From contig CAKUJN010000040.1 of assembly GCA_934661735.1 (NCBI GenBank), positions 1-18,769 on the forward strand: a stretch of 18,769 bases of DNA. The letters are read 5' to 3'. This document shows, piece by piece, positions 546 to 17,264 of the stretch (position 1 is its first letter; every line of letters begins with the position of its first letter). The DNA is from an uncultured Oscillospiraceae bacterium. GTDB taxonomy: Bacteria > Bacillota > Clostridia > Oscillospirales > Oscillospiraceae. A program made the translations under genes and the position numbers. Below the pieces are notes generated by a model. It saw only the letters and a list, made by a program, of their open reading frames with translations, did not search any database and was not told the origin of the DNA.

Positions 546-558
546 GTATTTTGCAAAA

Positions 559-1287: not shown

Positions 1288-1306
1288 GCAGAAAGGAGAA
1301 CGCGGC

Positions 1307-1858
1307 ATGGAGGCAGGCAGAGTCATAGCGGAAAATCTGCGCACGCTGCGCGCCGAGCGGAATCTGACGCTGGGGCAGCTGTCCAGAATCTCCGGCATCA
1401 GCAAGGCCATGCTGGCGGAGATCGAAAAGGGCGGGAGCAATCCGACGATCAACACGCTGCTGAAAATCGCGAACGGCCTGAACGTCCCCTACACGCGTCT
1501 GATGGAGGAGCCGGAGCAGGACGTCAGCATCGTCCGCGGCGCGGACATGCCCGAGCAGACCGGCGAAACGGAGCACTACCGGATCAACTGCTGCTTTACC
1601 ACGACGCACACGCGGAATTTTGAGCTGTTCCGCGCCGAGCTGGACGGCGGATCTTCCAGCACCTCCATCGGCCATCCGGCAAAGGCGCAGGAGTACCTGT
1701 ATGTGACAGCCGGACAACTGCAAATGTGTCTGAACGGGCAGACGTATACGCTGAACGCGGGCGACGCGATGGCGTTTGACTCCTCGCTCCGCCACACCTA
1801 TCGCAACGAACTGCCGGAAACCGCACATTTTGTGATTCTCAATTTCTATCCGGCATAG
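1307..1858 (+). CDS. XRE family transcriptional regulator with C-terminal cupin domain
   Basis: This 183-residue protein has an XRE-type helix-turn-helix at about residues 8-65 (LRTLRAERNLTLGQLSRISG, then ISKAMLAEIEKG, NPTINTLLKIANGL). A cupin_2 beta-barrel lies at about 105-175 (GHPAKAQEYLYVTAGQL, LNAGDAMAFDSSLRHTY). Such proteins are cytoplasmic DNA-binding regulators whose cupin domain senses a small ligand. They are often encoded beside AzlCD-type exporters, and this gene is divergent from azlC. The start is supported by AAAGGAG about 10 nt upstream. The likely target is the shared intergenic region; the ligand is unknown, with amino acids plausible from context only. Since azlC is truncated, the regulator may have outlived its original partner. 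Confidence 0.88.
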   Translation: MEAGRVIAENLRTLRAERNLTLGQLSRISGISKAMLAEIEKGGSNPTINTLLKIANGLNVPYTRLMEEPEQDVSIVRGADMPEQTGETEHYRINCCFTTTHTRNFELFRAELDGGSSSTSIGHPAKAQEYLYVTAGQLQMCLNGQTYTLNAGDAMAFDSSLRHTYRNELPETAHFVILNFYPA

Positions 1859-1873
1859 GGCGGAAAGCATCAA

Positions 1874-1900
1874 AAAACCTCCGGCTGAGCCGGAGGTTTT
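1874..1900. terminator. Bidirectional terminator between convergent genes
   Basis: AAAACCTCCGGC (1874-1885) pairs perfectly with GCCGGAGGTTTT (1889-1900) around a TGA loop. T-rich arms on both strands let it end both the regulator transcript and the oncoming peptidase transcript. Confidence 0.85.
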
Positions 1901-1926
1901 GACTTATATATAGCACTGTCTGCCGT

Positions 1927-3036: not shown

Positions 3037-3057
3037 GCTGCCGCTGCCGCGTTCTGT

Positions 3058-4287: not shown

Positions 4288-4337
4288 CGTATGCCTCCCG
4301 CTTGCGTTGTGTGCCGGATGCTCCGGCCTCTGCTCTG

Positions 4338-4366
4338 ATTATAATCCGGCTTTGCGCCGGATGCAA
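4338..4366 (-). promoter_or_regulatory. Candidate promoter for the M20-M42 operon
   Basis: On the minus strand TTGCAT (4366-4361) precedes TATAAT (4343-4338) by 17 bp. It points at the M20-type gene whose ATG is at 4287. The -10 is perfect and the -35 is partial. Confidence 0.5.
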
Positions 4367-4417
4367 TCACGATTCTTTGCGGCGCGGCGCAAAATTGCCG
4401 CTTTGGGCAGAAGCGGT

Positions 4418-4446
4418 TTGACATTTCGCGCCGCAGGCCGTATAAT
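4418..4446 (+). promoter_or_regulatory. Consensus sigma-A promoter of csoR
   Basis: TTGACA (4418-4423), a 17-bp spacer and TATAAT (4441-4446) make a perfect housekeeping promoter. Transcription would start near 4453, directly before the operator. Confidence 0.8.
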
Positions 4447-4454
4447 CAGAAAAA

Positions 4455-4470
4455 ATACCCGCACGGGTAT
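4455..4470. promoter_or_regulatory. CsoR-type operator in the csoR leader
   Basis: ATACCC-GCAC-GGGTAT is a perfect 6-4-6 dyad of the TACCC/GGGTA type bound by CsoR proteins. It lies just after the predicted transcription start and immediately before the GGAGG ribosome site (4471-4475), consistent with negative autoregulation. Confidence 0.75.
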
Positions 4471-4482
4471 GGAGGTGCGTCT

Positions 4483-4758
4483 ATGAAGCAGTGTATGGAC
4501 GCGGAGAATCTGCACCGCAGGCTCCGCAAAATCATCGGACAGGTACAGGCCATCGACCGGATGATCGACGAGGACGTGCCGTGTGAGGACGTTCTGTCGC
4601 AGATCAACGCCGCAAAATCCGCGCTGCACGGCTGTGGAAAGCTCGTACTGGAGGGTCATATCAAGCACTGTGTCCGCGACGGCATCGAGCACGGCGACGC
4701 CGACAAGACCATTGAGAACTTCACAAAGGCGGTTGAGCGGTTTTCAAACATGGGATAG
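4483..4758 (+). CDS. csoR: CsoR family copper-sensing transcriptional repressor
   Basis: This 91-residue all-helical regulator belongs to the CsoR/RcnR/FrmR (DUF156) family. These proteins bind DNA as oligomers and release it when Cu(I) binds. The Cu(I) triad Cys-His-Cys is visible as C34 (VPCEDVL), H59 and C63 (EGHIKHC), with the spacing known for CsoR (C36, H61 and C65 in the M. tuberculosis protein). The N-terminal helix carries the typical RLRKIIGQVQAIDRMI. A GGAGG site lies 7 nt before the ATG. It sits directly upstream of a P1B ATPase with the same operator, so it most likely represses itself and the ATPase until metal is in excess. FrmR-like formaldehyde sensing is less likely given the context. 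Confidence 0.9.
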   Translation: MKQCMDAENLHRRLRKIIGQVQAIDRMIDEDVPCEDVLSQINAAKSALHGCGKLVLEGHIKHCVRDGIEHGDADKTIENFTKAVERFSNMG

Positions 4759-4766
4759 AGGCTTTC

Positions 4767-4794
4767 AAAAGCAGCCCTGCGGGGCTGCTTTTTT
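4767..4794 (+). terminator. Intrinsic terminator after csoR
   Basis: GCAGCCC (4771-4777) pairs with GGGCTGC (4782-4788), extended by AAAA/TTTT, and is followed by a run of six T. The T-run ends at 4794, one base before the -35 of the next promoter, so csoR and the ATPase gene are separately transcribed. Confidence 0.85.
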
Positions 4795-4795
4795 C

Positions 4796-4824
4796 TTGAC
4801 ATTGTATACCCATATGGGTATAAT
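4796..4824 (+). promoter_or_regulatory. Consensus sigma-A promoter of the P1B ATPase gene
   Basis: TTGACA (4796-4801) and TATAAT (4819-4824) are separated by exactly 17 bp. The spacer is largely filled by a CsoR-type operator, so repressor binding would directly block RNA polymerase. Confidence 0.85.
4806..4821. promoter_or_regulatory. CsoR-type operator in the ATPase promoter
   Basis: ATACCC-ATAT-GGGTAT has the same 6-4-6 form as the csoR operator and lies between -35 and -10, overlapping the first three bases of the -10. A further half-site-like ATACCCCC follows at 4831-4838. Confidence 0.78.
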
Positions 4825-4862
4825 ATACGCATACCCCCTAATGTATAGAAAAGAGGCCGTGT

Positions 4863-6734
4863 ATGAAACATCTTATGGAAAAGCTGGAGCGGCTGCTGGA
4901 ACTGGGCGGCATCAAAAAGAATATTGTGCTGCTTGCAATCTCCGGCGCCGCGGTCGTTTGCAGTCTTTTGCAGTTCAGACCGTTTTCGCTCGATCCGGCA
5001 TGGATTGCCATTTTTCTGTGCGGCATACCGATCATTCTGGAGGCAGTTATCGGTCTGGTCACCGCCTTTGACATCAAGGCGGACGTGCTGGTGTCGCTGG
5101 CGCTGATTGCCTCCATCTGCATCGGAGAGACGTTTGCCGCCGGCGAGGTGGCGTTTATCATGCAGCTGGGCGCGCTGCTTGAGGAGCTGACGGTTGCAAA
5201 GGCCAGAGCCGGCATCGAAAAGCTGGTCCATCTGACGCCGCAGACAGCGCGCGTTCTGCGGAACGGCGCAGAGGAAACCATTCCCGCCGAGCAGGTGCGG
5301 GTCGGCGACCGGCTCCGCGTCCTCCCGGGCGAAACGGTGCCCGTGGACGGCGTGATTATCTCCGGACAGACCTCCATCAATCAGGCGGTCATGACCGGCG
5401 AGTCGCTGCCGGTGGACAAGAGCGAGGGCGATCCGGTGTCCTCGGGTACGGTCAACCAGTTCGGCGCATTCGAGATGGAGGCCGTGAAGGTCGGCGAGGA
5501 CAGCTCCATTCAGCGCATGATCCGGCTGGTGCAGTCGGCGGACGCGGGCAAGGCGAAAATTGTCGGCATTGCGGACCGCTGGGCGACGTGGATTGTCATT
5601 ATCGCGCTCAGCGCCGCGGCGCTGACGTGGCTGATAACCGGACAGATCATCCGCGCCGTGACCATCCTTGTTGTATTCTGCCCGTGCGCGCTGGTGCTGG
5701 CCACGCCCACGGCCATCATGGCCACCATCGGCAACGCAACAAAGCACGGCTTTCTGGTCCGCGAGGGCGACGCGCTGGAGCGGCTTGCACGGACAAAAAT
5801 CATCGCCTTTGACAAGACCGGCACGCTGACCTGCGGAACACCGGAGGTCGTCGCGGTGGACAGCGTTTCGGAAACGCTCGGCAGGGACGAGGTATACCGC
5901 CTTGCCGCCTCCGCGGAGCAGCTCTCCGAGCACCCGCTTGGAAAAGCCATCGTCAGCTGCTGCAAAAAAGCCGGCGCAGCGCTGTCCGCAGCGGAGGAAT
6001 TTGAGATGATCCCGGGCCGCGGCGTGCGCGCGGTGGTGGAGGGAAAAGTCATCCTTGCCGGAAGCCCCGCGCTTCTGCGGGAGCACGGCGTTGAAATCAC
6101 CTCCGTGCCATCTGCCGAGGCCCGTGTCCGGCAGGGCTGCACCGTGACCTATGTGGCGGCAGACGGTGTGTTTGCCGGATACATCGCCCTGTCCGACACG
6201 CTGCGGAAGGAGAGTGCGGCGACCATCGGCGCAATCGCCCGTCTCGGCGTGCAGCCGGTGCTGTTGACCGGCGACCATGAAAACGCCGCAGAGGCCATTG
6301 CGGAAAGGCTGCACATCCGCGAGGTGCGGGCGGGCTGCCTGCCGGAGGACAAGCTGAAATACATCGGCGAATATCAGGAAAAGGGCATGCCGGTATGCAT
6401 GATCGGCGACGGCGTGAACGACGCGCCGGCGCTGAAAAAGGCGGACGTCGGCATCGCCATGGGCGGCGTGGGGAGCGATATCGCCGTGGACGCGGCGGAC
6501 ATCGCGCTGGTGGACGACGAGGTCAGGGAGCTGCCGCATCTGATGGCGCTGTCCAGACGGATGATGACCACCATACGGCTGAACATGGCGTTCTCGATGG
6601 CGCTGAACTTCGCGGCAATCACGCTGGCCATCATCGGAACGCTGAATCCCGTCGTCGGCGCGCTGGTGCACAACGCGGGCTCTGTGCTGGTCATCGCAAA
6701 CTCGGCATTTTTATTGAAATGGAGAAAAAAATAA
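4863..6734 (+). CDS. Heavy-metal-translocating P1B-type ATPase (probable copper exporter)
   Basis: A cytoplasmic-membrane pump that exports metal using ATP. The 623-residue protein has four N-terminal helices (about 19-110), actuator motif TGES (178-181), a CPC metal site (273-275), phosphorylation motif DKTGT (317-321), the HP dipeptide (357-358) and GDGVND (515-520), then two C-terminal helices. The N-terminal heavy-metal-binding domain common in CopA is absent, explaining its short length. The last helix reads LVHNAGSV (602-608) rather than the MSxSS pattern of typical Cu(I) pumps, or the DxG of Zn/Cd pumps. Copper is suggested by the adjacent CsoR with its Cys-His-Cys triad and by its operator in this promoter. 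The transmembrane metal site leaves specificity open, so no gene symbol is given. Confidence 0.92.
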   Translation: MKHLMEKLERLLELGGIKKNIVLLAISGAAVVCSLLQFRPFSLDPAWIAIFLCGIPIILEAVIGLVTAFDIKADVLVSLALIASICIGETFAAGEVAFIMQLGALLEELTVAKARAGIEKLVHLTPQTARVLRNGAEETIPAEQVRVGDRLRVLPGETVPVDGVIISGQTSINQAVMTGESLPVDKSEGDPVSSGTVNQFGAFEMEAVKVGEDSSIQRMIRLVQSADAGKAKIVGIADRWATWIVIIALSAAALTWLITGQIIRAVTILVVFCPCALVLATPTAIMATIGNATKHGFLVREGDALERLARTKIIAFDKTGTLTCGTPEVVAVDSVSETLGRDEVYRLAASAEQLSEHPLGKAIVSCCKKAGAALSAAEEFEMIPGRGVRAVVEGKVILAGSPALLREHGVEITSVPSAEARVRQGCTVTYVAADGVFAGYIALSDTLRKESAATIGAIARLGVQPVLLTGDHENAAEAIAERLHIREVRAGCLPEDKLKYIGEYQEKGMPVCMIGDGVNDAPALKKADVGIAMGGVGSDIAVDAADIALVDDEVRELPHLMALSRRMMTTIRLNMAFSMALNFAAITLAIIGTLNPVVGALVHNAGSVLVIANSAFLLKWRKK

Positions 6735-6898
6735 TGGTCGTAAAAATTATCGGACTCATCATCGGCATTCTTGTACTTGGCGCAGGTATCTACTACCTTG
6801 TCAGGGAAAAATCAGACGCGGAATCCAAAAAGATCTACACCGTCGTCAGCATTCTCGGCGCGGTCATCGCCGCCGTGTGCGCGGTGCTGCTGCGCTGA
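6734..6898 (+). CDS. Small two-helix membrane protein overlapping the ATPase gene
   Basis: This 54-residue protein (MVVKIIGLIIGILVLGAGIY...) overlaps the ATPase stop by one base as TAATG, and GGAG lies 10 nt upstream. An in-frame ATG at 6719 would add five residues (MEKKI). Two hydrophobic helices are predicted, about 4-23 and 35-53, joined by a charged loop (REKSDAESKK). No known family was recognised. The overlap implies translational coupling to the pump, so a subunit, stabiliser or chaperone role for the ATPase is a reasonable inference, by analogy with small peptides of other P-type pumps such as KdpF. No metal-binding Cys or His pair is present apart from one Cys (C49). Confidence 0.75.
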   Translation: MVVKIIGLIIGILVLGAGIYYLVREKSDAESKKIYTVVSILGAVIAAVCAVLLR

Positions 6899-6954
6899 CG
6901 CAGCGCTTCCGTTTGCGCTTTCTGCCTGAGGGCTCTGTGTTTTTTGTGATCTGC

Positions 6955-6985
6955 AAAGCGGAACGCCGTATGGCGTTCCGCTTTT
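6955..6985 (+). terminator. Intrinsic terminator of the metal-resistance operon
   Basis: AAAGCGGAACGCC (6955-6967) pairs perfectly over 13 bp with 6972-6984 around a GTAT loop and ends in TTTT. It separates the metal unit from the cobalamin operon. Confidence 0.88.
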
Positions 6986-7005
6986 GCGCTGCCGGCGAAA
7001 GCTCG

Positions 7006-7033
7006 TTGACTTTTTTCTTCATTTCTGTATAAT
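7006..7033 (+). promoter_or_regulatory. Promoter of the cobalamin-uptake operon
   Basis: TTGACT (7006-7011) and TATAAT (7028-7033) lie 16 bp apart. The first coding sequence starts only at 7222, leaving a leader of about 180 nt. Confidence 0.75.
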
Positions 7034-7039
7034 AATAAA

Positions 7040-7170
7040 CATAAAAACTGCGAAAGCTTCCGGTATCCATGCAGAATCCGGCGGAAGCGCCGTGCGCCGC
7101 AGCCGCGGCGGGCGCATGCCGCCGCCCAGATCTTCCGGCCGTCATTTCTCCGGAAATGGCGGTCTTTTCA
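7040..7170 (+). promoter_or_regulatory. Structured 5' leader with attenuator; candidate cobalamin riboswitch
   Basis: The leader precedes a B12-type operon and is rich in helices: GCTTCCG (7056-7062) can pair with CGGAAGC (7082-7088), and GCGCCGC with GCGGCGGGCGC-like segments further on. ATGCAGAATCC (7069-7079) resembles the GGTGCAAATCC box of cobalamin riboswitches. CCAGATCTTCCGGCC (7126-7140) resembles their 3' AGTCAGA...CCTGCC box. An intrinsic terminator follows directly. Known parts, such as a clear GCCACTGT box, are not obvious, so the class is inferred mostly from context. Transcription attenuation is better supported than the identity of the ligand. Confidence 0.42.
7139..7168 (+). 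terminator. Attenuator terminator in the leader
   Basis: CCGTCATTTC (7139-7148) pairs with GAAATGGCGG (7153-7162), 10 bp with one G-U pair, around a TCCG loop and followed by TCTTTT. It lies before the first gene of the operon, so it must be conditional. Its 5' arm overlaps the last bases of the putative aptamer. Confidence 0.65.
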
Positions 7171-7221
7171 GCAGCGCGCATCCGGCGCGCCGCGTTGAAG
7201 CGGAACAAGGAGGTAACAGAC

Positions 7222-8817
7222 ATGAAAACCGTCAGAAAACTGGTCGCGCTGGCGCTGGCCGTCATGCTGGCGCTCTCTCTGGCCTGCACCGCGCCCGCCG
7301 CGGGCACACTGAGCCAGAGCGTTCAGAAATCCGCACAGTATCTGCTCAACGCCGTTCCCGACCCGCAGGTCGGCGGCGTGGGCGGCGAATGGGCCGTGCT
7401 GGGACTGGCGCGTTCGGGCGCTTCGGTGCCGGACAGCTATTTCAGCACCTATTACCGCAATGTCGAGCGCTATGTCCGAGAATGCCGCGGCGTTCTGCAC
7501 GAGCGCAAGTACACCGAATATTCGCGCGTCATCATCGCACTGACCGCCATCGGCAAAGACCCGACAAATGTCGCGGGCTATAATCTGCTCACGCCGCTTG
7601 GCGACTATGACCAGACCGTCTGGCAGGGCGTCAACGGCCCGATGTGGGCGCTGATCGCGCTGGACTGCGGCGGCTATGACATGCCAAAAAATACGCAGGC
7701 AAAAACGCAGGCCACGCGGCAGATGTACGTGGATCTGATTCTCGGCGCGCAGCTGTCCGACGGCGGCTGGACCATCGGCGGCGACGAAGCCGACCCCGAT
7801 CTGACGGCCATGGCGCTTCAGGCGCTGGCGCCCTATCGCGGGCAGAAGGCCGTGCGGAGCGCGGTGAACGACGGCATCGCATGCCTGTCAAAGCTTCAGG
7901 GCAGCACCGGCGGCTATGAATCGTGGGGCACCGCAAATTCCGAGAGCGCCGCGCAGGTCGTCGTTGCGCTGACGACGCTGGACATTCCGCTGGACGATTC
8001 GCGCTTTGTCAAGGGCGGGAAAACCGTTCTGGACGCGCTTCTGACCTATCAGAACACCGACGGCAGCTTCCGCCACACAGCGGACGGCACGGCCGACGGC
8101 ATGGCGACGGAGCAGGGCTTCTACGCGCTGGCGGCGGCGCTGCGCGCGCAGAACGGCCAGAGCGCGCTGTATCAGATGCAGGTCGACGCGTCGTCGGCCG
8201 AGCCGTCGAATCCGGATAAAAACGCCGCGGTGAAGTCCGTTCCGGTGACAAAGCCCAACGTCAGCTTTTCTGACGTCAAAAATCACAAGAATCAGGCCGC
8301 CATTGAGGAGCTTGCCTCGCGCGGCATCATCAACGGCACCGGCAGCGGTCTGTTCCAGCCCGACCGGAGCATGACGCGCGCGGAATTCGCCGCCATCGTC
8401 ACGCGCGGCCTCGGTCTGACGCCAGGCGCCACCTCCGCCTTTACCGACGTGCCCGCGGATCAGTGGTACGCGGGCTATATCGGCACGGCCAGCAGCTATG
8501 GCATCGTCAACGGCGTCGGCAACCGGAAGTTCAATCCCTCCGGAACGATTACCCGTCAGGAGGCCGCGGCCATGGTCGCGCGCGCGGCAAAGCTCTGCGG
8601 CATGGACACCGCCCTGACAGCCTCCGCGTCCGAGGCGGAGCTTGCGAAATACGACGACGGCCGGCTCACCGCCGACTGGGCCAAACAGCCGGTGGCGTTC
8701 TGTCTGAAAGAGGGCATTCTGACGTGCGGGAAAACCATCTCCCCCACGCAGCCCATTCTGCGCTGCGAAATCGCGCAGATGCTCTACAATCTGCTGAAAA
8801 ATGCGGAGCTGCTGTAG
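7222..8817 (+). CDS. Secreted SLH protein with alpha/alpha-toroid (prenyltransferase/intrinsic-factor-like) domain
   Basis: This 531-residue exported protein has a signal peptide at 1-27 (MKTVRKLVALALAVMLALSL..., cleavage near APAAG). An alpha/alpha-toroid domain of the squalene-cyclase/prenyltransferase repeat type spans about 30-320, with repeats such as DGGWTIGG (180-187), GGYESWG (230-236) and TDGSFRH (279-285). Three SLH domains follow, with motifs TRAE (385-388), TRQE (444-447) and a weaker LRCE (513-516). SLH domains bind secondary cell-wall polymer, so the protein should sit on the cell surface. The toroid matches the fold of the alpha domain of intrinsic factor and transcobalamin, and the next gene supplies the matching beta domain. 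A capture role for cobalamin or a related corrinoid is inferred from this pairing and the operon. AAGGAGG lies 9 nt before the chosen ATG; the frame stays open upstream into the leader and is not coding there. Confidence 0.87.
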   Translation: MKTVRKLVALALAVMLALSLACTAPAAGTLSQSVQKSAQYLLNAVPDPQVGGVGGEWAVLGLARSGASVPDSYFSTYYRNVERYVRECRGVLHERKYTEYSRVIIALTAIGKDPTNVAGYNLLTPLGDYDQTVWQGVNGPMWALIALDCGGYDMPKNTQAKTQATRQMYVDLILGAQLSDGGWTIGGDEADPDLTAMALQALAPYRGQKAVRSAVNDGIACLSKLQGSTGGYESWGTANSESAAQVVVALTTLDIPLDDSRFVKGGKTVLDALLTYQNTDGSFRHTADGTADGMATEQGFYALAAALRAQNGQSALYQMQVDASSAEPSNPDKNAAVKSVPVTKPNVSFSDVKNHKNQAAIEELASRGIINGTGSGLFQPDRSMTRAEFAAIVTRGLGLTPGATSAFTDVPADQWYAGYIGTASSYGIVNGVGNRKFNPSGTITRQEAAAMVARAAKLCGMDTALTASASEAELAKYDDGRLTADWAKQPVAFCLKEGILTCGKTISPTQPILRCEIAQMLYNLLKNAELL

Positions 8818-8846
8818 CGCTCCGCGGTCTGTGAGGAATTCGCCTG

Positions 8847-9476
8847 ATGTGGTGGAAAGCAAATAAATGGAAGATTCTGATTCCGGCGGCAGTCGTACTG
8901 GCGCTGCTGGCAGCATTCCTGCTGGGCGGAAAAGCGCCCGCACAGCCGGAGGCGCCGGTCTCCGGCACACAGGAGACCGCCGACCGCTATCAGACCGAGC
9001 CCGTCCCCGAGGGGAAGCCGCAGCCGGTCGAACCGCAGGACGCCGTCCGCGGCGACGGCACAATCCGGTGCACGATCTCCATCTCCTGCGCGACGATTCT
9101 GGACAACATGGACCTGTGCGACGCGGAAAAGCGCGAGCTGGTGCCGGACGACGGCTGGCTTTTGCCGCCGGAGGAGGTCACGGTGCAGGAGGGCGAAAGC
9201 GTTTTTGACGTTTTACAGCGCGTGTGTCAGGAAAACCGGCTTCATCTGGAGTTTTCCAACACGCCCGCGTACAACTCGGCGTATATCGAGGGCATCGGGA
9301 ATCTCTATGAATTTGACGTCGGGAATCTGTCCGGCTGGATGTACTCGGTCAACGGGTGGTTCCCAAATTATGGATGCAGCCGCTATCAGCTGTGCGACGG
9401 CGACGTGATCTGCTGGGTCTACACCTGCGATCTGGGGAGCGACGTCGGCGGCAGCAACGCGGCGGGCGGGGCATAA
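8847..9476 (+). CDS. Membrane-anchored DUF4430 (transcobalamin-like C-terminal) protein
   Basis: This 209-residue protein has an N-terminal membrane helix (about 10-27) after a short Lys-containing start, a Pro/Glu-rich linker (about 28-70), then a DUF4430 domain at about 110-195. The diagnostic stretch is LSGWMYSVNGWFPNYGCSRY followed by GDVICWVYT. DUF4430 corresponds to the beta domain of intrinsic factor and transcobalamin, which closes over bound B12. Eight cysteines lie in the extracytoplasmic part (75, 81, 91, 127, 177, 183, 189, 194), so disulfides are possible. There is no lipobox. It lies between the toroid protein and EcfT, suggesting that it hands ligand to the importer. The domain call is firm; ligand and partner are inference. 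GAGG lies upstream of the ATG. Confidence 0.87.
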   Translation: MWWKANKWKILIPAAVVLALLAAFLLGGKAPAQPEAPVSGTQETADRYQTEPVPEGKPQPVEPQDAVRGDGTIRCTISISCATILDNMDLCDAEKRELVPDDGWLLPPEEVTVQEGESVFDVLQRVCQENRLHLEFSNTPAYNSAYIEGIGNLYEFDVGNLSGWMYSVNGWFPNYGCSRYQLCDGDVICWVYTCDLGSDVGGSNAAGGA

Positions 9477-10373
9477 ATGCGGAAAAACGACACATTCGCG
9501 GGCTATCACCCGCTGATCAGCTTTTTATACTACGCGCTGGTGCTTCTGTTTTCCATGTGTCTGATGCACCCTGCGTACCTGCTGATCTCGCTCGCCGGCG
9601 CGGCGGGCTACAGCATATGGCTCAAGGGCCGGAAGGCCGTTCGATTCGCCGTCATGGGGCTTCTTCCTATGGCGGCGCTTGCCGCGCTGATCAACCCCGC
9701 GTTCAACCATGAGGGTATGACGATTCTGACGTATCTGCCCTCCGGCAATCCGATGACGCTGGAGTCCATCTACTACGGCGCGGCGGCGGCTGCGATGCTT
9801 TCGTGCGTCGTGCTGTGGTTTTCCAGCTATCACGAGGTCATGACCTCGGATAAATTCGTCTATCTCTTCGGGCGCGTCATTCCGGCGCTCTCGCTGGTCT
9901 TATCCATGGCGCTGCGCTTTATTCCCAGATTCCGCGCGCAGATGAAAACCGTCCTTGACGCGCGGCAGTGTCTCACGCGCGGCGCGGCGGAGCGCGGCGT
10001 TTTCTCGCGCGTGCGGAACGCCGCGACGGTGTTTTCCAGCATGGTCACATGGAGCATGGAAAACGCGATTGAAACGGCCGACTCCATGCGCGCGCGCGGC
10101 TACGGCCTGCCGGGCCGGACGGCCTTTTCCATCTATCGGTTTGACGCGCGCGACCGCGCGGCGCTGGCGTGGATTGGCTTCTGCGGGGCGTATGTCGTCT
10201 CCGGCTGGATTGCCGGAGGGACATATTTCCGGTATTACCCCACCGTGCGCGCGGCGGCGTGGACGCCGATGAACGTCAGCTTCATGCTGGCGTATCTGGC
10301 GCTCTGCATGACGCCGGTGATGCTCAACTGGAAGGAGGCGCGCAAATGGAAATCCTTACGATCCGCGATCTGA
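9477..10373 (+). CDS. ecfT: ECF transporter transmembrane subunit EcfT (CbiQ family)
   Basis: The T component of an energy-coupling factor importer couples two ABC ATPases to a substrate-binding S component in the membrane. This 298-residue protein has several hydrophobic helices and the two Ala-Arg-Gly coupling motifs in the cytoplasmic helices, ARQCLTRG (162-169) and MRARGYG (204-210). The ATG follows the DUF4430 stop codon with no gap, and its end overlaps the following ATPase gene by 28 nt, so the three are translated as a unit. A dedicated (group I) ECF module is implied because T, A and S lie together. B12 or cobinamide as the substrate is inferred from the neighbours. Confidence 0.9.
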   Translation: MRKNDTFAGYHPLISFLYYALVLLFSMCLMHPAYLLISLAGAAGYSIWLKGRKAVRFAVMGLLPMAALAALINPAFNHEGMTILTYLPSGNPMTLESIYYGAAAAAMLSCVVLWFSSYHEVMTSDKFVYLFGRVIPALSLVLSMALRFIPRFRAQMKTVLDARQCLTRGAAERGVFSRVRNAATVFSSMVTWSMENAIETADSMRARGYGLPGRTAFSIYRFDARDRAALAWIGFCGAYVVSGWIAGGTYFRYYPTVRAAAWTPMNVSFMLAYLALCMTPVMLNWKEARKWKSLRSAI

Positions 10374-12964
10374 CGTTCACCTACCCCGAGCAGGATCGGC
10401 CTGCCGTCAGAAATCTGACGCTCAGCGTGCGCGCCGGAGAATTTCTGGTGCTCTGCGGACCGTCCGGCTGCGGAAAAAGCACGCTGCTGCGGCAGCTGAA
10501 AAGCGTGCTTGCGCCGCACGGAACGCGCAGCGGAGAAATTTTATGGCACGGCGCGCCGCTGGACGCGCTGTCCCAGCGCGAGCAGGCCGAAAAAATTGGC
10601 TTTGTCCAGCAGAGTCCGGAAAACCAGATTGTGACCGACAAGGTCTGGCACGAGCTGGCCTTCGGGCTGGAATCACTGGGCGTGGAAACGCCGGAAATCC
10701 GCCGCCGCGTGGCAGAAATGGCGTCGTTTTTCGGCATTCAGACATGGTTCCACAAAAATGTAACCGAGCTTTCCGGCGGACAGAAGCAGCTGCTCAATCT
10801 TGCCGCCGTGATGGTGATGCAGCCGGAGGTTCTGATTCTGGACGAGCCGACCAGCCAGCTGGACCCCATCGCCGCGTCCGATTTTCTCGCGACGCTGGGC
10901 AAAATCAACCGCGAGCTCGGCACGACGATTCTCCTGACCGAGCACCGGCTTGAGGACGCGTTCAGCCTTGCCTCGCGCGCGGCTGTGATGGAGCGCGGCA
11001 CGCTTGCCTGCACGGGAAGCCCCGCCGAAATCGGCGCGGCCCTGAAAGCGGGCGGCAGCCCGATGTTTCTGGCCATGCCCGCCGCGATGCGTATCTGGGC
11101 TGCGGCGAACGCCGAGCCGCCGTGTCCGGTCAGCGTCCGCGACGGACGGCTCTGGCTGCGCGGCTATGCGCAGGCGCATCCGCTGCGCCCGCTGCCGCCG
11201 GCGCGTCCCGCGCCCGCCGCGGGCGAGACGCTCATTCAGGCCGATTCGCTCTGGTTCCGGTATGAAAAAGAGCTGCCTGACGTGGTAAAGGGCCTGTCCC
11301 TCACGCTGCGCAGGGGCGAGCTTCTGGCCCTCCTCGGCGGCAATGGAACCGGAAAGACCACCTCGCTCAAGCTTCTGGCAGGCTTGCAGAAGCCGTACCG
11401 CGGGGAACTGAAGCTATCGGGCAGGGCCGCCCTGCTCCCGCAGAATCCGCAGACGCTGTTTGTCAGGCAGACCGTGCGCGAGGATCTGACGGAGCTTCTG
11501 CCGAAGGCCGAACGCCGGTCCGAGCGGTTCGCGCAGATTGTCTCGCTCTGCCGGCTGACGGAGCTTCTGGACCGGCACCCCTATGATCTGTCCGGCGGCG
11601 AGCAGCAGCGCGCCGCGCTGGCAAAGGTGCTGCTTCTGGAGCCGGATATTCTGCTTCTGGACGAGCCGACCAAGGGTCTGGACGCCGAGTTCAAGCAGAC
11701 GCTGGCACAGATTCTCCGGACGCTTCAGTCCTCCGGCGTAGCAATCCTGATGGTCAGCCACGATATCGAGTTCTGCGCAGGCTGCGCCGGACGCTGCGCG
11801 CTGTTCTTTGACGGCGCCATCGTCGCCGAGGACGCGCCGCGCGCATTCTTCTCCGGCAACAGCTTCTATACGACCGCCGCCAACCGCATTGCGCGCGAGC
11901 TGTCCCCCGAGGCCGTGACGGCTGAGGACGTTATCGCCGTCTGCGGCGGCGAGGCTGCGCCCGAGCCGGAGGCTCCGGCGTATGCCCCCCTCCCGCCCGA
12001 GCCGGAGCGCGGGGAAGCCGCTGTGAAGGGGCTGCCCGTCTGGCGGAAGGTCCTTGCCGCCATTTCCGGCGCGGGCGCGCTGGCCTTGATCATTCAGGCC
12101 ATCCGCATGACGGATCTGACGCAGCTGGTCACGTCCGGCGGACTTTCCGCCATGGCCCCGCGGCAGCTGATTTCCTATGGCATTCTGATTGCGCTTCTGT
12201 TTATGTTCGCGTTCTCCATCGGACAGCGCGCGCCGCGCGCCGCCGTGCCGCAGCCGCAGAGGCAGCGGCTGAAAAAACGGACGCTTCTGGCCACGGCGCT
12301 GATTCTGCTGATGATTCCGCTGACGCTTTTCGCGGGCGTGCGCCTTTTCGGCGGGCGGCGGTACTATTTTATCTCCCTGCTGATTCTGCTGGAGTGTATG
12401 CTCCCGTTTTTTCTGATCTTTGAAGGCCGCAGGCCGCAGGCGCGCGAGCTTGTGATGATTGCGGTGCTGGTCGCGCTGAATGTGGCGGGACGCGCGGCGT
12501 TCTTCATGCTGCCGGAGTTCAAGCCCGTCGTGGCGATGACGATTCTGGCGGGCGTGGCCTTTGGCGGCGAAACGGGCTTTCTGGTCGGCGCAATGACGAT
12601 GCTGGTGTCCAACATTCTGTTTTCACAGGGGCCGTGGACGCCGTGGCAGATGTTTGCCATGGGCATCATCGGCTGGCTTGCCGGCGTGCTCTACCGCAGG
12701 GGCGTTCTGCGCCGCGGGCGGCTGAGCCTGTGCATATTCGGCGTTCTGTGCTCGACGGTCGTCTACGGCGGCATTATGAACCCCGCCGCGGCGCTGATGT
12801 GGGCGCAGACGATCAATCGGGACATTCTTCTCAGCTATTACCTCACCGGCGTGCCGGTCGATCTGGTGCGCGCGGCGGCGACCTTCTTCTTCCTTTGGGT
12901 TGCGGCGGAGCCGATGCTGGAAAAGCTGGACCGTGTCAAGGTGAAATACGGTCTGGTGGAATAG
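10346..12964 (+). CDS. ECF transporter fusion: two ABC ATPase domains joined to an S component
   Basis: This 872-residue protein joins parts that are usually three subunits. NBD1 (about 1-240) has Walker A GPSGCGKST (38-46), signature LSGGQ (142-146), LILDEP (163-168) and switch H200. NBD2 (about 294-505) has GGNGTGKTT (331-339), LSGGEQ (415-420), LLLDEP (436-441) and H472. After a Pro-rich linker (535-558) come helices at about 567-583, 608-626, 646-665 and 674-692. A membrane domain at about 700-855 resembles ECF S components (GAMTMLVSNILFSQGPWTPW at 748-767), possibly the cobalamin-type CbrT group. AAGGAGG lies 7 nt before the ATG at 10346; the same frame is open further upstream, inside ecfT. 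All ATPase motifs are intact. It likely forms a complete importer with EcfT; the substrate is inferred. Confidence 0.88.
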   Translation: MEILTIRDLTFTYPEQDRPAVRNLTLSVRAGEFLVLCGPSGCGKSTLLRQLKSVLAPHGTRSGEILWHGAPLDALSQREQAEKIGFVQQSPENQIVTDKVWHELAFGLESLGVETPEIRRRVAEMASFFGIQTWFHKNVTELSGGQKQLLNLAAVMVMQPEVLILDEPTSQLDPIAASDFLATLGKINRELGTTILLTEHRLEDAFSLASRAAVMERGTLACTGSPAEIGAALKAGGSPMFLAMPAAMRIWAAANAEPPCPVSVRDGRLWLRGYAQAHPLRPLPPARPAPAAGETLIQADSLWFRYEKELPDVVKGLSLTLRRGELLALLGGNGTGKTTSLKLLAGLQKPYRGELKLSGRAALLPQNPQTLFVRQTVREDLTELLPKAERRSERFAQIVSLCRLTELLDRHPYDLSGGEQQRAALAKVLLLEPDILLLDEPTKGLDAEFKQTLAQILRTLQSSGVAILMVSHDIEFCAGCAGRCALFFDGAIVAEDAPRAFFSGNSFYTTAANRIARELSPEAVTAEDVIAVCGGEAAPEPEAPAYAPLPPEPERGEAAVKGLPVWRKVLAAISGAGALALIIQAIRMTDLTQLVTSGGLSAMAPRQLISYGILIALLFMFAFSIGQRAPRAAVPQPQRQRLKKRTLLATALILLMIPLTLFAGVRLFGGRRYYFISLLILLECMLPFFLIFEGRRPQARELVMIAVLVALNVAGRAAFFMLPEFKPVVAMTILAGVAFGGETGFLVGAMTMLVSNILFSQGPWTPWQMFAMGIIGWLAGVLYRRGVLRRGRLSLCIFGVLCSTVVYGGIMNPAAALMWAQTINRDILLSYYLTGVPVDLVRAAATFFFLWVAAEPMLEKLDRVKVKYGLVE

Positions 12965-12988
12965 CGCGGACGCCGCGGAGGATACAAT

Positions 12989-14053
12989 ATGGATTTTTCA
13001 CAACTGAACCGTCAGATTGCCCCGCCCGACGGCGCGGCGGCCGCGCGCGCAAAGGCGCACTGGGACGGCATTGCAAAGCCGCTGGCGGGCCTTGGCGCAC
13101 TGGAGGATATGATTGTCAAAATCGCCGCGCTGACGGGCGATGAAAACGTGCGCCTTGCGCCGCGCGCGGTGCTGGTTCTGTGCGCCGACAACGGCGTGGT
13201 GTGCGAGGGTGTGACCCAGACCGACGCGTCGGTCACGGCGGTCATGGCCGGTCAGATTCACCGCAGGCGCTCGTCCGTGTGCCGCATGGCCGCGGCGGCG
13301 GGCGCGGAGGTCGAGCCGGTGGACATGGGAATGCTGACGCGCGTCGAGGGCGTGCGCGGCTGTCACATCGCCGACGGCACGAAAAATATCGCCGCCGGCC
13401 CCGCCATGACGCACGGCGAGACCGTGCGCGCGATAAAATACGGCATGGAGCTGGTGCGCGAATACCGTGACAGGGGCTTCCGCCTGCTTGCCACCGGCGA
13501 AATGGGCATCGGCAACACCACCACATCCAGCGCCGTGGCCGCGGCGCTTCTGCACCTGCCGGTCGAGGCGGTGACGGGCCGCGGCGCGGGACTCAGCGAC
13601 GCGGGTCTTGCGCGAAAGCAGGACGCAGTCCGGCGGGCGCTTCAGATCAATCATCCCGACGCGGACGACGCGCTGGACGTGCTGGCCAAGCTTGGCGGCT
13701 TTGACATCGCGGGCATGGCCGGAATCTTCCTTGGCGGCGCGCTGTACCGCGTGCCGGTTCTGATCGACGGATTTATCAGCTCCATTGCCGCGCTGATTGC
13801 CGCGCGGCTGTGTCCGCGCGCGGCGTGCGCGATGCTGGCAAGCCACTGCTCAGCGGAGCCTGCCGCGCGGCAGGTGCTGCGCGAGCTTGGCGTGCGCGCC
13901 GTCATTGACGCAGGGCTGAAGCTTGGCGAGGGCACAGGCGCGGTATGCGCCATGCCGCTTCTGGAGCTGGCGCTTTCGGTGTACCACGGCTCCGCCGCGT
14001 TCTCCGACACGGGCGTGGAGCAGTACACCGTACAGGAGGGCGACCGGCGATGA
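12989..14053 (+). CDS. cobT: Nicotinate-nucleotide--dimethylbenzimidazole phosphoribosyltransferase CobT
   Basis: CobT makes alpha-ribazole phosphate from a lower-ligand base and nicotinate mononucleotide, the first step of nucleotide-loop assembly of B12. The 354-residue length fits. Family landmarks include LCADNGVVCEGVTQTD near residues 64-80, GEMGIGNTTTSSA near 170-182, GRGAGLSD near 196-203 and the catalytic Glu in KLGEGTGA (E314). GGAGG lies 8 nt before the ATG. It is 24 nt downstream of the transporter fusion gene and overlaps cobU by ATGA. The base specificity (dimethylbenzimidazole, adenine or phenolics) cannot be read. Confidence 0.94.
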   Translation: MDFSQLNRQIAPPDGAAAARAKAHWDGIAKPLAGLGALEDMIVKIAALTGDENVRLAPRAVLVLCADNGVVCEGVTQTDASVTAVMAGQIHRRRSSVCRMAAAAGAEVEPVDMGMLTRVEGVRGCHIADGTKNIAAGPAMTHGETVRAIKYGMELVREYRDRGFRLLATGEMGIGNTTTSSAVAAALLHLPVEAVTGRGAGLSDAGLARKQDAVRRALQINHPDADDALDVLAKLGGFDIAGMAGIFLGGALYRVPVLIDGFISSIAALIAARLCPRAACAMLASHCSAEPAARQVLRELGVRAVIDAGLKLGEGTGAVCAMPLLELALSVYHGSAAFSDTGVEQYTVQEGDRR

Positions 14054-14577
14054 TGATTCTGCTGACAGGCGGCTCGGGCTGCGGAAAAAGCACGTTTGCG
14101 GAAAAGCTCTGCGTACAGCTGCCCGCGCCGCGGTATTATATCGCCGCCATGCGCCCCTATGGCCTGGGCGGGCGCGAAAAGGTCGCGCGGCACCGCGCGA
14201 TGCGCGCGGGAAAGGGCTTTGAGACAATCGAGCGCTATATGGCACTGGACACGCTGCGGCTGGACGCCGCGGGCGGCACGGCGCTTCTGGAGTGCATCTG
14301 CAATCTGACGGCAAACGAGATGTTTGACGAAAACGGCGTGCAGTCGGACCCCGTGCGCCGCGTGCTGGACGGTGTCGCCGCGCTGCGCGCGCAGTGCGAA
14401 ACGCTTGTCGTCGTGACAAACGACGTGGGGAGCGACTGCGGCGAGTATTCCGCCTCCACGCGCGGCTATATCGCCGCACTGGGACAGATCAACGCAGCTC
14501 TTGCCGCGCAGGCCGACGCCGTGTGCGAGCTGGTCTGCGGGATTCCCCTTGTTCTGAAAGGAGCGCTGCCGGTATGA
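14050..14577 (+). CDS. cobU: Adenosylcobinamide kinase/adenosylcobinamide-phosphate guanylyltransferase CobU
   Basis: CobU phosphorylates adenosylcobinamide and then transfers GMP to give AdoCbi-GDP, the acceptor for CobS. The 175-residue protein has P-loop GGSGCGKST (7-15), the guanylylated His in ARHRAMRAG (H48), the TNDVGSD segment (123-129, usually NEVGxG) and the C-terminal CGIPLVLKGALP. Its start overlaps the cobT stop (ATGATG, with GGAGGG upstream), and its stop overlaps the cobS start. The DVGSDC sequence departs somewhat from the usual NEVGSGIVP. It works together with CobT and CobS here. Confidence 0.9.
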   Translation: MMILLTGGSGCGKSTFAEKLCVQLPAPRYYIAAMRPYGLGGREKVARHRAMRAGKGFETIERYMALDTLRLDAAGGTALLECICNLTANEMFDENGVQSDPVRRVLDGVAALRAQCETLVVVTNDVGSDCGEYSASTRGYIAALGQINAALAAQADAVCELVCGIPLVLKGALPV

Positions 14578-15353
14578 AAGACGTTCTTCGCTCCATGGCC
14601 ATGGCATTTTTGATGTTTTCCGTTGTGCCCATGCCGCGCGTGGAGTGGAAAAAGGAAAATATGCGCTATATGCTGGCGTGCCTGCCGCTGGTCGGCGTAC
14701 TCATCGCGCTGGCGCAGCAGCTGTGGCTGCTGCTCTGCGAGGTGCTCGGCTTCGGAAAGCTTTTGTACGCGGCGGGGCTGACGCTTCTGCCGGTGCTGCT
14801 TTCGGGCGGAATTCATCTGGACGGCTTCTGCGATACGGTCGACGCGCTGTCCAGCCATGCCGAGCCCGCGCGCAAGCGGGAGATTCTGAAGGACTCGCAC
14901 GCCGGTGCGTTCGCGATGATCTTCCTTGCCGTCTATTTTATCGCCGCTGCGGCGCTGTGCGCCGAGCTTCCGCGGACGAGGACGGCGGTTCTGGCGCTGG
15001 GCATACAGCAGGTGCTTGCGCGCGCTGTCGGCGCGCTGGCCTCGGTCTGGTTCCCCGGCTCGACGCAGACGGGGCTGCTTGCGGCGTTCCGCGACGCGGC
15101 GGCACGCCGGTCGGCGGTTGTGCTTGCGCTCTGGATTGCCGCGTGCGCGGCGGGCCTTTTCGCGCTTTCGCCCGCAGGCGGCATTGCCGCCGTACTGGCG
15201 GCGGGGCTCTGCATGTGGTATGTCTACCGGATGTCCCGCCGCGAATTCGGCGGAATGTCGGGCGATCTGGCGGGATTTCTGATTACGATCAGCGGCGCGG
15301 CGATGCTGCTTGCGCAAATTGCCGCGGAAAGGGTGAGTGCAATATGGTTTTGA
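14574..15353 (+). CDS. cobS: Adenosylcobinamide-GDP ribazoletransferase CobS
   Basis: CobS is the membrane-bound cobalamin synthase that joins AdoCbi-GDP to alpha-ribazole (phosphate). The 259-residue polytopic protein shows GGIHLDGFCDTVDAL (78-92), KDSHAGAF (106-113) and GGMSGDLAGF (226-235), the conserved acidic and substrate motifs of the family, plus several hydrophobic helices. It starts within the cobU stop (ATGA) and overlaps the next small gene by 10 nt, indicating tight coupling. Confidence 0.93.
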   Translation: MKDVLRSMAMAFLMFSVVPMPRVEWKKENMRYMLACLPLVGVLIALAQQLWLLLCEVLGFGKLLYAAGLTLLPVLLSGGIHLDGFCDTVDALSSHAEPARKREILKDSHAGAFAMIFLAVYFIAAAALCAELPRTRTAVLALGIQQVLARAVGALASVWFPGSTQTGLLAAFRDAAARRSAVVLALWIAACAAGLFALSPAGGIAAVLAAGLCMWYVYRMSRREFGGMSGDLAGFLITISGAAMLLAQIAAERVSAIWF

Positions 15354-15697
15354 TCATCGGCGGCGAGGGGTCCGGCAAGCGCACGTTTGCGCAGAGCCTC
15401 GGCCTTTCGCCGGAGGATATGGCTGACGGCGCGCTGGACGCGCGGCCGTGCGTGTATCATGTGGAAAAAATGGTGTTTGCCGACGCGGCGAACGCGCCGC
15501 GGCTTCTGGAGCCGCTGTGCGAAAAGCAGGTTGTGATCTGCTGCGAGGTGGGCAGCGGCGTGATTCCGGCCGACTATGAAACACGCCTTGCGCGCGAGGC
15601 CGTCGGGCGGCTCTGCGTCCGGCTGGCGCAGCGCGCGCAGTGCGTGGTGCGCATGGTCTGCGGCATTCCCGCAATCATCAAGGGGGAGCTGCCGTGA
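15344..15697 (+). CDS. Short CobU-like P-loop protein (kinase paralogue lacking the guanylylation segment)
   Basis: This 117-residue protein resembles a shrunken CobU. It has P-loop GGEGSGKRT (6-14), EVGSGVIP (68-75) matching CobU's NEVGxGIVP, then a helix and CGIPAIIKGELP (106-117), almost the same ending as the full CobU encoded two genes earlier. About 55 middle residues, including the guanylylated His region, are missing, so it could at most keep a kinase activity. Its EVGSG motif is closer to the CobU consensus than that of the full-length paralogue. It lies inside the cob operon with overlaps on both sides (10 nt with cobS; GTGA with cobC), which argues that it is translated and useful. 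Possible roles are a dedicated cobinamide kinase or a partner of the full CobU. Confidence 0.8.
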   Translation: MVLIIGGEGSGKRTFAQSLGLSPEDMADGALDARPCVYHVEKMVFADAANAPRLLEPLCEKQVVICCEVGSGVIPADYETRLAREAVGRLCVRLAQRAQCVVRMVCGIPAIIKGELP

Positions 15698-16305
15698 AGC
15701 TGCTGATGATCCGGCACGCGCAGACAGCTGGAAATCTTCTGCGCCGCTACATCGGCGCGACGGACGAGCCGCTGTGCCCCGAAGGCGTGCGCGCGGCGCG
15801 CGCAGCCGCGCCCGCATGGCGGCCGGAGGCGGTTTTCGTCACGCCGCTGCTGCGCACGCGGCAGACGGCGGCGATCATGTTCCCCGACGTGCCGCAGGTC
15901 GTCGTTCCGGCGCTGCGCGAGATGAACTTCGGCCGCTTTGAGGGCCGCAGCGCGGCGGAAATGGAGCAGGACACGGCCTATCGCGCGTGGGTCGACGGCG
16001 GCTGTACGGGCGCGTGCCCCGACGGAGAGAGCCGCGAGGAATTCTGCGCGCGCGTCTGCGCGGGCTTTGCACAGACACTGCGGCAGCTCGCCGCCAGCAA
16101 CGCGCAGCGCGCGGTATTTGTCGTACACGGCGGGACGATCATGGCAGTGCTCTCCCGCTTTGCCCGTCCGGAAATGGAGTATTATGACGGCGCCGTTGGA
16201 AACTGCCGCTGCGTCCAATGCGAGGCGGAATTTTCTGACGGTGCTTTGACGCTGACGCGCGTGCAGAAGCTGGACGCGCCCGCGGAATGGAAAGGAGCGA
16301 AATGA
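15694..16305 (+). CDS. cobC: Alpha-ribazole phosphatase CobC (histidine phosphatase family)
   Basis: CobC removes the phosphate from alpha-ribazole 5'-phosphate or from cobalamin 5'-phosphate, finishing nucleotide-loop assembly. The 203-residue protein has the phosphohistidine motif RHAQT (7-11, H8), acidic E76 in ALREMNFGRFEG and the second catalytic His in HGGT (H145). The start is a GTG that overlaps the previous stop (GTGA) with AGGGGGAG upstream. The frame is open further upstream, but that part lies within the previous gene. Histidine phosphatases are broad, so the specific role rests on the operon. Confidence 0.88.
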   Translation: MKLLMIRHAQTAGNLLRRYIGATDEPLCPEGVRAARAAAPAWRPEAVFVTPLLRTRQTAAIMFPDVPQVVVPALREMNFGRFEGRSAAEMEQDTAYRAWVDGGCTGACPDGESREEFCARVCAGFAQTLRQLAASNAQRAVFVVHGGTIMAVLSRFARPEMEYYDGAVGNCRCVQCEAEFSDGALTLTRVQKLDAPAEWKGAK

Positions 16306-17264
16306 AGGTACAATTCAATCTGACGACCAGCAGCTGCGATCTGGACCGCTACCGCGACCGCGCGGATCTGGAGTCCATGATGGAGGGCTTTGACGGTGTG
16401 GAGCTGATGTGGATGGGCGAGGACACGCGGAAAATCGTCCCGCCGGAGCGCGTCATCGGTCTGCACATGGCGTGCAAGCCGTACTGGCTGGATTTCTGGA
16501 ACGGCGATCTGGATGCGTGCCGCGACGAGCTTGGCTCGGACGAGATGATCCGCGCCGTCTACGGCGGCGATGCGCGCGACGCGCTGACGGCATACTATCG
16601 CGCGGAGCTTGCGCGCGCCATGGAGTACGGCGCGGAGTATGTGGTGTTCCACGCGTCGGACTCCGGCATTGAGGAAACGCTGCGCCGCCGCTACCGCCAC
16701 ATGGACGCGGAGGTCGTCGACGGCGTCTGCGCGCTGATGAACGAGGTCTTTGACGGCGTGACGGACGGTCCGGCGCTGCTGCTGGAAAATCTGTGGGAGT
16801 CGGGGCTTACCATGACCGACCCCGAGATCACGGCGCGCCTGCTGGACGGCATCGCCTATCCGAACAAGGGTCTGATGCTGGATACGGGGCACATCATGCA
16901 CACGAATCTGGCGCTGTGCACCCAGAAGCAGGCGCTTGAGTACATCCACACCATGCTGGACCGGCACGGTCCGCTCTGCCGCAGCATCCGCGGCATTCAC
17001 CTGAACCAGTCGCTGAACAGCGCGTATATCCGGCGGCTGATCCGCCATCCACCGGAGATTCCCGCCGACTATGCCGCGCGCTCGGCGCTTTTGTTCGAGT
17101 ATGTGTTCCAGGTGGACCAGCATAAGCCGTTTATCTGCCGCGGCGTTCGGTCGCTGGTCGACCGTCTCAAGCCGGAGTATCTGACATATGAGTTCATCTC
17201 CTCCAGCCGTGAGCAGCACCAGCGCATGCTGATCCGTCAGCGCGCCGCGCTGGCGCGCGAATAG
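16302..17264 (+). CDS. TIM-barrel protein of the sugar phosphate isomerase/epimerase (AP endonuclease 2) family
   Basis: This 320-residue cytoplasmic protein has the xylose-isomerase-like fold. Likely metal ligands at strand ends are visible: H117 (VVFHASDSG), E162 (LLLENLWESG), D194 and H197 (LMLDTGHIMHT), H233 (GIHLNQS) and E297 (TYEFISS). They suggest a working divalent-metal enzyme. Its ATG overlaps the cobC stop as ATGA, with AAAGGAG upstream, so it belongs to the cobalamin operon, yet no such enzyme is part of the classical B12 pathway. It might act on a ribose moiety of the lower ligand or on an unrelated sugar. The function is unknown. Confidence 0.85.
   Translation: MKVQFNLTTSSCDLDRYRDRADLESMMEGFDGVELMWMGEDTRKIVPPERVIGLHMACKPYWLDFWNGDLDACRDELGSDEMIRAVYGGDARDALTAYYRAELARAMEYGAEYVVFHASDSGIEETLRRRYRHMDAEVVDGVCALMNEVFDGVTDGPALLLENLWESGLTMTDPEITARLLDGIAYPNKGLMLDTGHIMHTNLALCTQKQALEYIHTMLDRHGPLCRSIRGIHLNQSLNSAYIRRLIRHPPEIPADYAARSALLFEYVFQVDQHKPFICRGVRSLVDRLKPEYLTYEFISSSREQHQRMLIRQRAALARE

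Follow-up and report, generated by a model that had tools for sequence, protein, structure and literature searches.

To our knowledge, the capture of scarce corrinoids is less worked out in Gram-positive bacteria than in Bacteroides, with its BtuB/BtuG route. The SLBB superfamily was defined by Burroughs, Balaji, Iyer and Aravind in 2007 (PMC1796856), and passages of that paper describe how one B12 molecule is sandwiched by both domains of transcobalamin, predict that bacterial fusions of an α/α-toroid with an SLBB domain, found in operons with CbiO- and CbiQ-like genes, are B12 scavengers, and propose that animal transcobalamin arose by transfer from low-GC Gram-positives. On the import side, the energy-coupling factor (ECF) transporter ECF-CbrT of Lactobacillus delbrueckii (PDB entry 6FNP), characterised in 2018, imports cobalamin and cobinamide, and in ECF importers the S-component itself is the binding protein, as passages of PMC5997447 set out. 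Here we compare with these systems a stretch of 18,769 nucleotides from an uncultured Oscillospiraceae bacterium (GenBank assembly GCA_934661735.1, contig CAKUJN010000040.1, positions 1 to 18,769 of the forward strand; termed the window throughout). Its subject is an operon headed by two adjacent genes, one for a toroid protein with SLH domains and one for a protein with DUF4430, the transcobalamin-type SLBB domain, which are followed by genes for an ECF importer and for Cob enzymes.

We propose that the window carries an operon for the acquisition of corrinoids (cobalamin, cobinamide), in which the toroid and DUF4430 proteins probably form a split, two-chain binder feeding a CbrT-type importer. 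Corrinoid uptake by the operon is very likely, and a two-piece trap is plausible. The most detailed version, a split intrinsic factor in which the wall toroid catches cobalamin and a membrane-held DUF4430 lid clamps it and docks on the CbrT-type ECF importer, stands in our estimate at even chances. What has been computed are the domain identities, the similarity of the S-domain to CbrT, the riboswitches of related loci and the existence of proteins in which both domains are naturally fused; that corrinoid is bound, that the two chains touch and that the ligand is handed to the importer is what we infer. An earlier note, made from the window sequence without database searches, had placed the two domains on adjacent genes at the head of an operon with an ECF importer and CobT/U/S/C, and the open reading frames (ORFs), domains and gene calls agree with this description. 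It had also counted three SLH domains, of which two stretches pass Pfam by themselves and the third is a degenerate repeat seen by eye only.

The window holds an ECF set comprising EcfT, two ECF ATPases and a CbrT homologue. When the S-domain of the ATPase fusion is compared with the PDB, exactly one chain is found at E up to 10, namely 6fnp_A (E 6.1e-8). The same chain is matched (E 7.8e-19) by a stand-alone S-component encoded in the survey locus L086, immediately after a cobalamin riboswitch and a DUF4430 gene. By homology, the window S-component is CbrT-like, and transport of cobalamin and cobinamide is predicted for it. That the operon imports cobalt or a lower-ligand precursor (α-ribazole, benzimidazole) and not the corrinoid ring appears very improbable. 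Such a cargo would suit the EcfT, a member of the CbiQ (cobalt) family, and the ATPase part of the fusion, which passes the cbiO cobalt model TIGR01166. It would also suit CobT and CobC, which act on the lower ligand; CobU and CobS, however, act on cobinamide. Moreover, the binder model presented below resembles transcobalamin, and the S-domain resembles CbrT, described in passages of PMC5997447 as a transporter of cobalamin and cobinamide.

The strongest functional evidence for the corrinoid reading is provided by the riboswitches of relatives, not by the window. A contig scan with the window toroid retrieved 340 relatives, and the analysis was carried out on the best 80, picked by similarity to that toroid (L023 and L025, which have identical coordinates and look like the same stretch, were both counted). 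Among 21 of these loci, chosen for length and not at random, 16 carry the Rfam cobalamin riboswitch RF00174 5' of the toroid gene, on the + strand. A model termed R1 was built from 16 Rfam hits in such loci and run on 81 sources (the 80 loci and the window); its training set overlaps with the loci counted, and only the Rfam figure is independent. With R1, a riboswitch is found upstream in the same-strand run in 42/80 loci; 11 are without one, and in 27 the run reaches the locus start, leaving the upstream part unseen. For this count unmatched ORFs of less than 180 aa were dropped, gaps below 2 kb were allowed, the last opposite gene could overlap by 250 bases, and R1 matches weaker than E 0.01 (7/73) were left out; a first count, in which runs were broken at small antisense ORFs, gave 29/80. 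The riboswitch lies directly before the toroid gene in 15 of the 42 positive loci and is separated from it by one to three genes, over up to 9.4 kb, in the other 27. Nearly all R1 matches at E 0.01 (62/66) are on the strand of the operon. In L002, which has the same Cob genes as the window, 87 bp separate the end of the riboswitch from the toroid ORF. Together with the CbrT-type S-component, these riboswitches tie the operon family to B12, as the earlier note had supposed.

The toroid relatives stem mostly from Clostridia-type bacteria and in some cases from Paenibacillus, which suggests a Gram-positive, Clostridia-like source for the window; SLH domains are present on 76/80 toroids. Neighbouring genes were identified through phmmer searches that took the proteins of the window as queries, and therefore divergent partners may have been missed. 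DUF4430 adjoins the toroid in 63 of the 70 loci with 1.5 kb of room. Given this figure and the 340 relatives, the arrangement seen in the window is not due to chance. Co-occurrence of the pair with EcfT, for which a survey had been suggested in the earlier note, is widespread, as EcfT follows downstream in 50/66 loci with 3 kb of room. By the same note, the idea would have to be abandoned if the pair were often found in operons that have nothing to do with B12; instead, 51/60 loci with 5.5 kb downstream contain a relative of the window's S-component.

The window DUF4430 protein has a single N-terminal hydrophobic segment, matching the membrane helix predicted earlier. By eye, this region contains no cysteine, a proline-rich linker comes after the helix, and the helix is taken as uncleaved. 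An N-terminal hydrophobic segment recurs in 70/73 single-DUF4430 ORFs from the 80 loci and the window. A phmmer search of the DUF4430 protein against the PDB yielded no match at E 1, and because PDB sequence searches gave no direct route, the link to intrinsic factor comes from structure only. Toroid and DUF4430, encoded by two genes in the window, are fused in a single chain in relatives such as P0126. At least 92% of the fusion query is covered by P0126, P0127 and 33/37 of the entries P0241-P0277, and in L095-L098 fused toroid-DUF4430 genes are situated directly 5' of EcfT. Over the aligned part of DUF4430, P0126 and the window share 79% identity. The top 15 PDB matches of its model (pLDDT 89) are all transcobalamin, haptocorrin or intrinsic factor (E 3e-11 to 8e-9), aligned over both domains with a root-mean-square deviation of about 10 Å and a sequence identity of 13-15%; for the beta domain against transcobalamin 5no0, TMt is 0.79. 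The model also contains the β-hairpin insert after the helix of the beta-grasp domain by which PMC1796856 defines SLBB proteins: its helix (394-404) is followed by two strands (409-414 and 419-425). Judged by this predicted structure of a fusion relative, the fold of both intrinsic factor/transcobalamin domains is present, which bears out the domain assignment of the earlier note. Moreover, the existence of natural fusions argues that toroid and DUF4430 act together. In two other fusions, P0280 and P0301, two hydrophobic segments are seen by eye between the domains, as if a membrane hairpin held both outside; these proteins are a possible step between fused and split forms.

DUF4430 was also looked for regardless of any toroid. 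This survey covered 59 genomes taken from the order to which G001, the source genome of L001, belongs; as seed genome, G001 was left out of the linkage count. DUF4430 occurs in 46 of the 59 and RF00174 in 31. A same-strand riboswitch lies within 7 kb upstream of 22/70 DUF4430 matches, compared with about 0.083 expected by random placement, and 48/70 matches show no riboswitch link. Viewed from the RNA, 23/48 riboswitches have DUF4430 downstream (2 of the 48 are below the Rfam gathering score), and 18 of the 22 genomes having both show the link. For this draw, the riboswitch scan was run under stricter filters and with no more than 35 scored candidates per genome, so that misses are possible; the windows of 7 kb, 12 kb and 500 bp used in the survey were set after the coordinates had been seen, and the chance rate applies to the order draw only. 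In a second draw, from the family of the Paenibacillus genome G005, 12/30 genomes contain DUF4430; here 28/31 matches are located within 12 kb downstream of a riboswitch, and the remaining three belong to one genome without a detected riboswitch. Stand-alone CbrT-like S genes directly follow DUF4430 in 18/21 cases, or in 12/15 if the six genomes that supplied the query are set aside. Of 13 survey loci searched in Rfam, L096 has an AdoCbl-II riboswitch upstream, and L097, L099 and L100 are without a riboswitch. Scavengers would be expected to lack CobS, and it was found in none of six genomes in which DUF4430 is linked to a riboswitch, although these genomes may be incomplete. Among 14 control genomes, DUF4430 was also matched in Lactococcus lactis and Methanosarcina acetivorans. 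One survey locus, L087, contains a partial match to OLE RNA (RF01071, 179 bits) at 5757-6000 on the minus strand, cut by the locus end.

In G024, G028, G036 and G053 (L085-L088), riboswitch, DUF4430 and CbrT-like S gene stand in a row, and no toroid was detected in the fetched stretch. These rows are what would be expected if the operon served B12 uptake and lacked a joint trap, with DUF4430 alone acting as corrinoid donor for CbrT and the SLH-toroid as a separate wall reservoir or a binder of polysaccharide or cell wall. The different anchors of the two window proteins fit this alternative, since the animal domains are fused, and toroid folds are frequent among glycan-active proteins as well. 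It is nevertheless rather unlikely: toroid and DUF4430 adjoin in nine tenths of the loci counted above, the two are fused in many proteins and also in this operon slot, and the domains of transcobalamin sandwich one B12 between them, as described in PMC1796856.

Some observations weigh against a corrinoid operon with a two-chain binder. No cobalamin riboswitch (RF00174) was found in the window in four looks, including one with R1. Furthermore, CobT or CobS occurs downstream of the toroid in only 1/80 relatives (L002) besides the window, and the Cob genes are therefore regarded as an add-on and not as part of the core; the earlier note had leaned on them, and they are indeed present in the window, yet peripheral in the family. 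Finally, the toroid taken alone fits terpene cyclases as well as or better than transcobalamin. Its Pfam Prenyltrans score is weak (5.8e-4, below the cut-off), and the AlphaFold2 model of residues 26-325 is a confident toroid, for which Foldseek gives E 2.3e-5 with the best terpene cyclase and E 6.1e-5 with the best transcobalamin. TMq against transcobalamin reaches 0.65; cyclases are tied by Foldseek and ahead by VIA-align. A PDB search with the single toroid protein returned S-layer proteins and, weakly, cyclases, and a search with the toroid profile returned cyclases, weaker alpha-2-macroglobulin and a few matches near E 0.1.

Profile and fold searches rank squalene-hopene and drimenyl synthases first or close to first, and one might take the toroid for a class II terpene cyclase or prenyltransferase-type enzyme working on an isoprenoid or wall lipid, beside an importer that carries something else. 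We attach next to no weight to this identity. The catalytic signature of class II terpene cyclases, D-x-D-D-T, is kept in 0/203 toroid sequences (some of them redundant), and in its place a [DENQ]-x-D-hydrophobic-T-x-M motif is found in 200/203. Because of this absence, and despite the good fold fit, a cyclase or prenyltransferase was rejected as the leading idea; the secreted SLH protein, the B12 riboswitches ahead of related operons and the similarity of the S-component to CbrT likewise point to B12.

The corrinoid operon proposed here could work as follows. The SLH-anchored toroid would capture or concentrate corrinoid at the cell wall, and the DUF4430 domain, held beside the importer on a flexible tether, would close over the exposed corrinoid face and thereby complete the binding site. 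The DUF4430 lid might then pass the ligand to the CbrT-type S-component, with import driven by ATP hydrolysis through EcfT and the two ATPases, and CobU, CobS, CobT and CobC would complete or remodel the salvaged corrinoid. Homology and gene context suggest the capture and the final Cob steps; closure and hand-off are conjectured. The split may allow one wall-bound pool of toroids to feed few importers.

The operon consists of ten same-strand genes (7222-17264), whose ends touch, overlap or nearly touch (Table 1). L002 shows the same gene order, with CobT, CobU, CobS, CobU-like and CobC, and one extra SLH ORF in between. In both loci a short second CobU-like protein, corresponding to the C-terminal part of CobU, is encoded after CobS beside the full CobU (10442-11212 in L002). 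The TIM-barrel protein at the end of the window operon found no PDB match at E 0.01. AP_endonuc_2 TIM-barrel relatives are encoded downstream of the toroid in 11/80 loci, between EcfT and the ATPase fusion (L029, L034, L035, L042, L043, L050, L051, L053, L056, L059 and L063).

Table 1. Features of the putative corrinoid operon and its 5' region (window coordinates)
Feature	Position	Strand	Evidence
Promoter-like -35/-10 pair, 5' of operon	7006..7033	+	Consensus match only, 11/12 bases
Toroid-SLH protein, 531 aa	ATG 7222 to stop 8817	+	ORF; Pfam SLH, weak Prenyltrans; signal peptide by eye
α/α-Toroid domain, residues 26-325	7297..8196	+	AF2 pLDDT 96, pTM 0.93; Foldseek
Predicted cell-wall anchor: two clear SLH domains and a degenerate one	8257..8814	+	Pfam SLH 7.4e-32; third repeat by eye
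DUF4430 (transcobalamin-type SLBB) protein, predicted membrane-anchored, 209 aa	8847..9476	+	ORF; Pfam DUF4430; N-terminal hydrophobic segment
DUF4430 domain, residues 116-193	9192..9425	+	Pfam PF14478, 4.7e-18
EcfT (CbiQ family)	9477..10373	+	Pfam CbiQ 1.6e-5, 25.1 bits vs cut-off 25
EcfA-EcfA-S fusion, 872 aa	10346..12964	+	Pfam ABC_tran x2, ECF S-component models; NCBIfam cbiO TIGR01166 over cut-off, ECF ATPase TIGR04520 just below
S-component domain, CbrT-like	12431..12952	+	Sole PDB match 6fnp_A (ECF-CbrT), E 6.1e-8
CobT	12989..14053	+	NCBIfam TIGR03160 over cut-off
CobU	14050..14577	+	Pfam CobU 7.8e-31; NCBIfam model below cut-off
CobS	14574..15353	+	NCBIfam TIGR00317 over cut-off
Short second CobU-like protein, 117 aa	15344..15697	+	Pfam CobU 2.1e-10, C-terminal part only
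CobC-like alpha-ribazole phosphatase	15694..16305	+	Pfam His_Phos_1 1.2e-32; TIGR03162 1.7e-26, below cut-off
TIM-barrel protein, last gene of overlapping run	16302..17264	+	Pfam AP_endonuc_2 1.2e-9

A GC-rich leader of 182 nt (7040-7221) extends from the promoter-like site to the toroid gene, placed where some relatives have their cobalamin riboswitch. The leader folds better than shuffled sequences (z -2.6; 4/200 shuffles as good) and matches no Rfam family. The promoter-like pair is not significant by count, as one site was found and 1.9 were expected in shuffles of the region. Further upstream, the stretch 4483-6734 encodes a small regulator of CsoR type together with a heavy-metal P-type ATPase (both named by eye); nothing linking them to B12 was noticed, though no dedicated search was made.

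Large surface proteins also accompany the toroid loci. In 45 of the 66 loci with 3 kb upstream, the toroid gene is preceded by a gene for a protein of more than 500 aa in which SLH, DUF4430 or toroid was matched; the largest of these proteins reach about 3000 aa. Five large proteins were scanned: four of them (L029, L034 and L041 upstream; L061 downstream) carry SLH, DUF4430 and either Ig-like or cadherin-like domains, and the fifth (L067), cut by the locus end, has a sub-threshold DUF4430 match only. These large SLH/DUF4430 proteins are possibly a further corrinoid receptor.

If the proposed function holds, the window encodes an ECF system served by a dedicated extracellular receptor made of two chains, in the lineage that Burroughs et al. 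proposed as the source of animal intrinsic factor (PMC1796856, in the passages cited above). ECF importers could then own extracellular receptors, and bacterial kin of intrinsic factor would be open to tests: since the same operon slot holds a fused form in some loci and a split form in others, assembly, affinity and hand-off can be compared between the two. DUF4430, in Pfam a domain of unknown function, would gain a function across a large part of its range.

Animal intrinsic factor, transcobalamin and haptocorrin share with the window the combination of an α/α-toroid and a DUF4430-type beta-grasp domain, whereas the window distributes these over two chains, one with an SLH wall anchor and the other with a membrane anchor, and the domain arrangement of P0126 differs from theirs. 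Relative to ECF-CbrT of Lactobacillus delbrueckii (PMC5997447, 6FNP), the S-component is homologous, but the window joins S-component and both ATPases in a single chain and also carries genes for an extracellular binder of two domains; the terms "lipoprotein" and "DUF4430" are absent from the main text of that paper. A table in PMC9963975 lists, by name only, an "additional lipoprotein component of putative cobalamin ECF transporter", and a DUF4430 protein appears there beside rtpR, although the passages concerned do not equate the two. This lipoprotein resembles the window system as an extra protein beside a cobalamin ECF transporter, in place of which the window has a transmembrane and an SLH-bearing protein as a pair. 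Surface capture of B12 and hand-over to a transporter also characterise BtuB-BtuG/BtuH of Bacteroides; those systems are outer-membrane and TonB-dependent, and the parallel is an analogy for which no homology is claimed.

A close parallel is the transcobalamin-like clade of the SLBB superfamily in Gram-positive bacteria, which passages of PMC1796856 describe by an extracellular toroid/SLBB protein, an operon with CbiO/CbiQ-like genes and sometimes a second extracellular SLBB protein. The window likewise encodes surface proteins, putatively secreted to judge from their N-terminal hydrophobic segments, in an operon with CbiO/CbiQ-like genes. The clade proteins are fusions, in contrast to the separate SLH-toroid and membrane SLBB proteins of the window, and neither "SLH" nor "S-layer" appears in the main text of PMC1796856. 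A literature search, with most subscription journals outside its reach, found no experimental test of a bacterial toroid/DUF4430 protein. Given the prediction in PMC1796856 and the cobalamin-ECF lipoprotein of PMC9963975, the broad reading is not new. The "distinctive uptake route" of the earlier note consequently has to be narrowed, since bacterial toroid/SLBB scavengers already figure in PMC1796856, to the split, SLH-anchored form, which its passages do not describe. What the present analysis adds to these known systems is this split form with its SLH and membrane anchors, the assignment of the S-component to CbrT, the riboswitch counts, the DUF4430-CbrT pair without a toroid and the model of a fusion.

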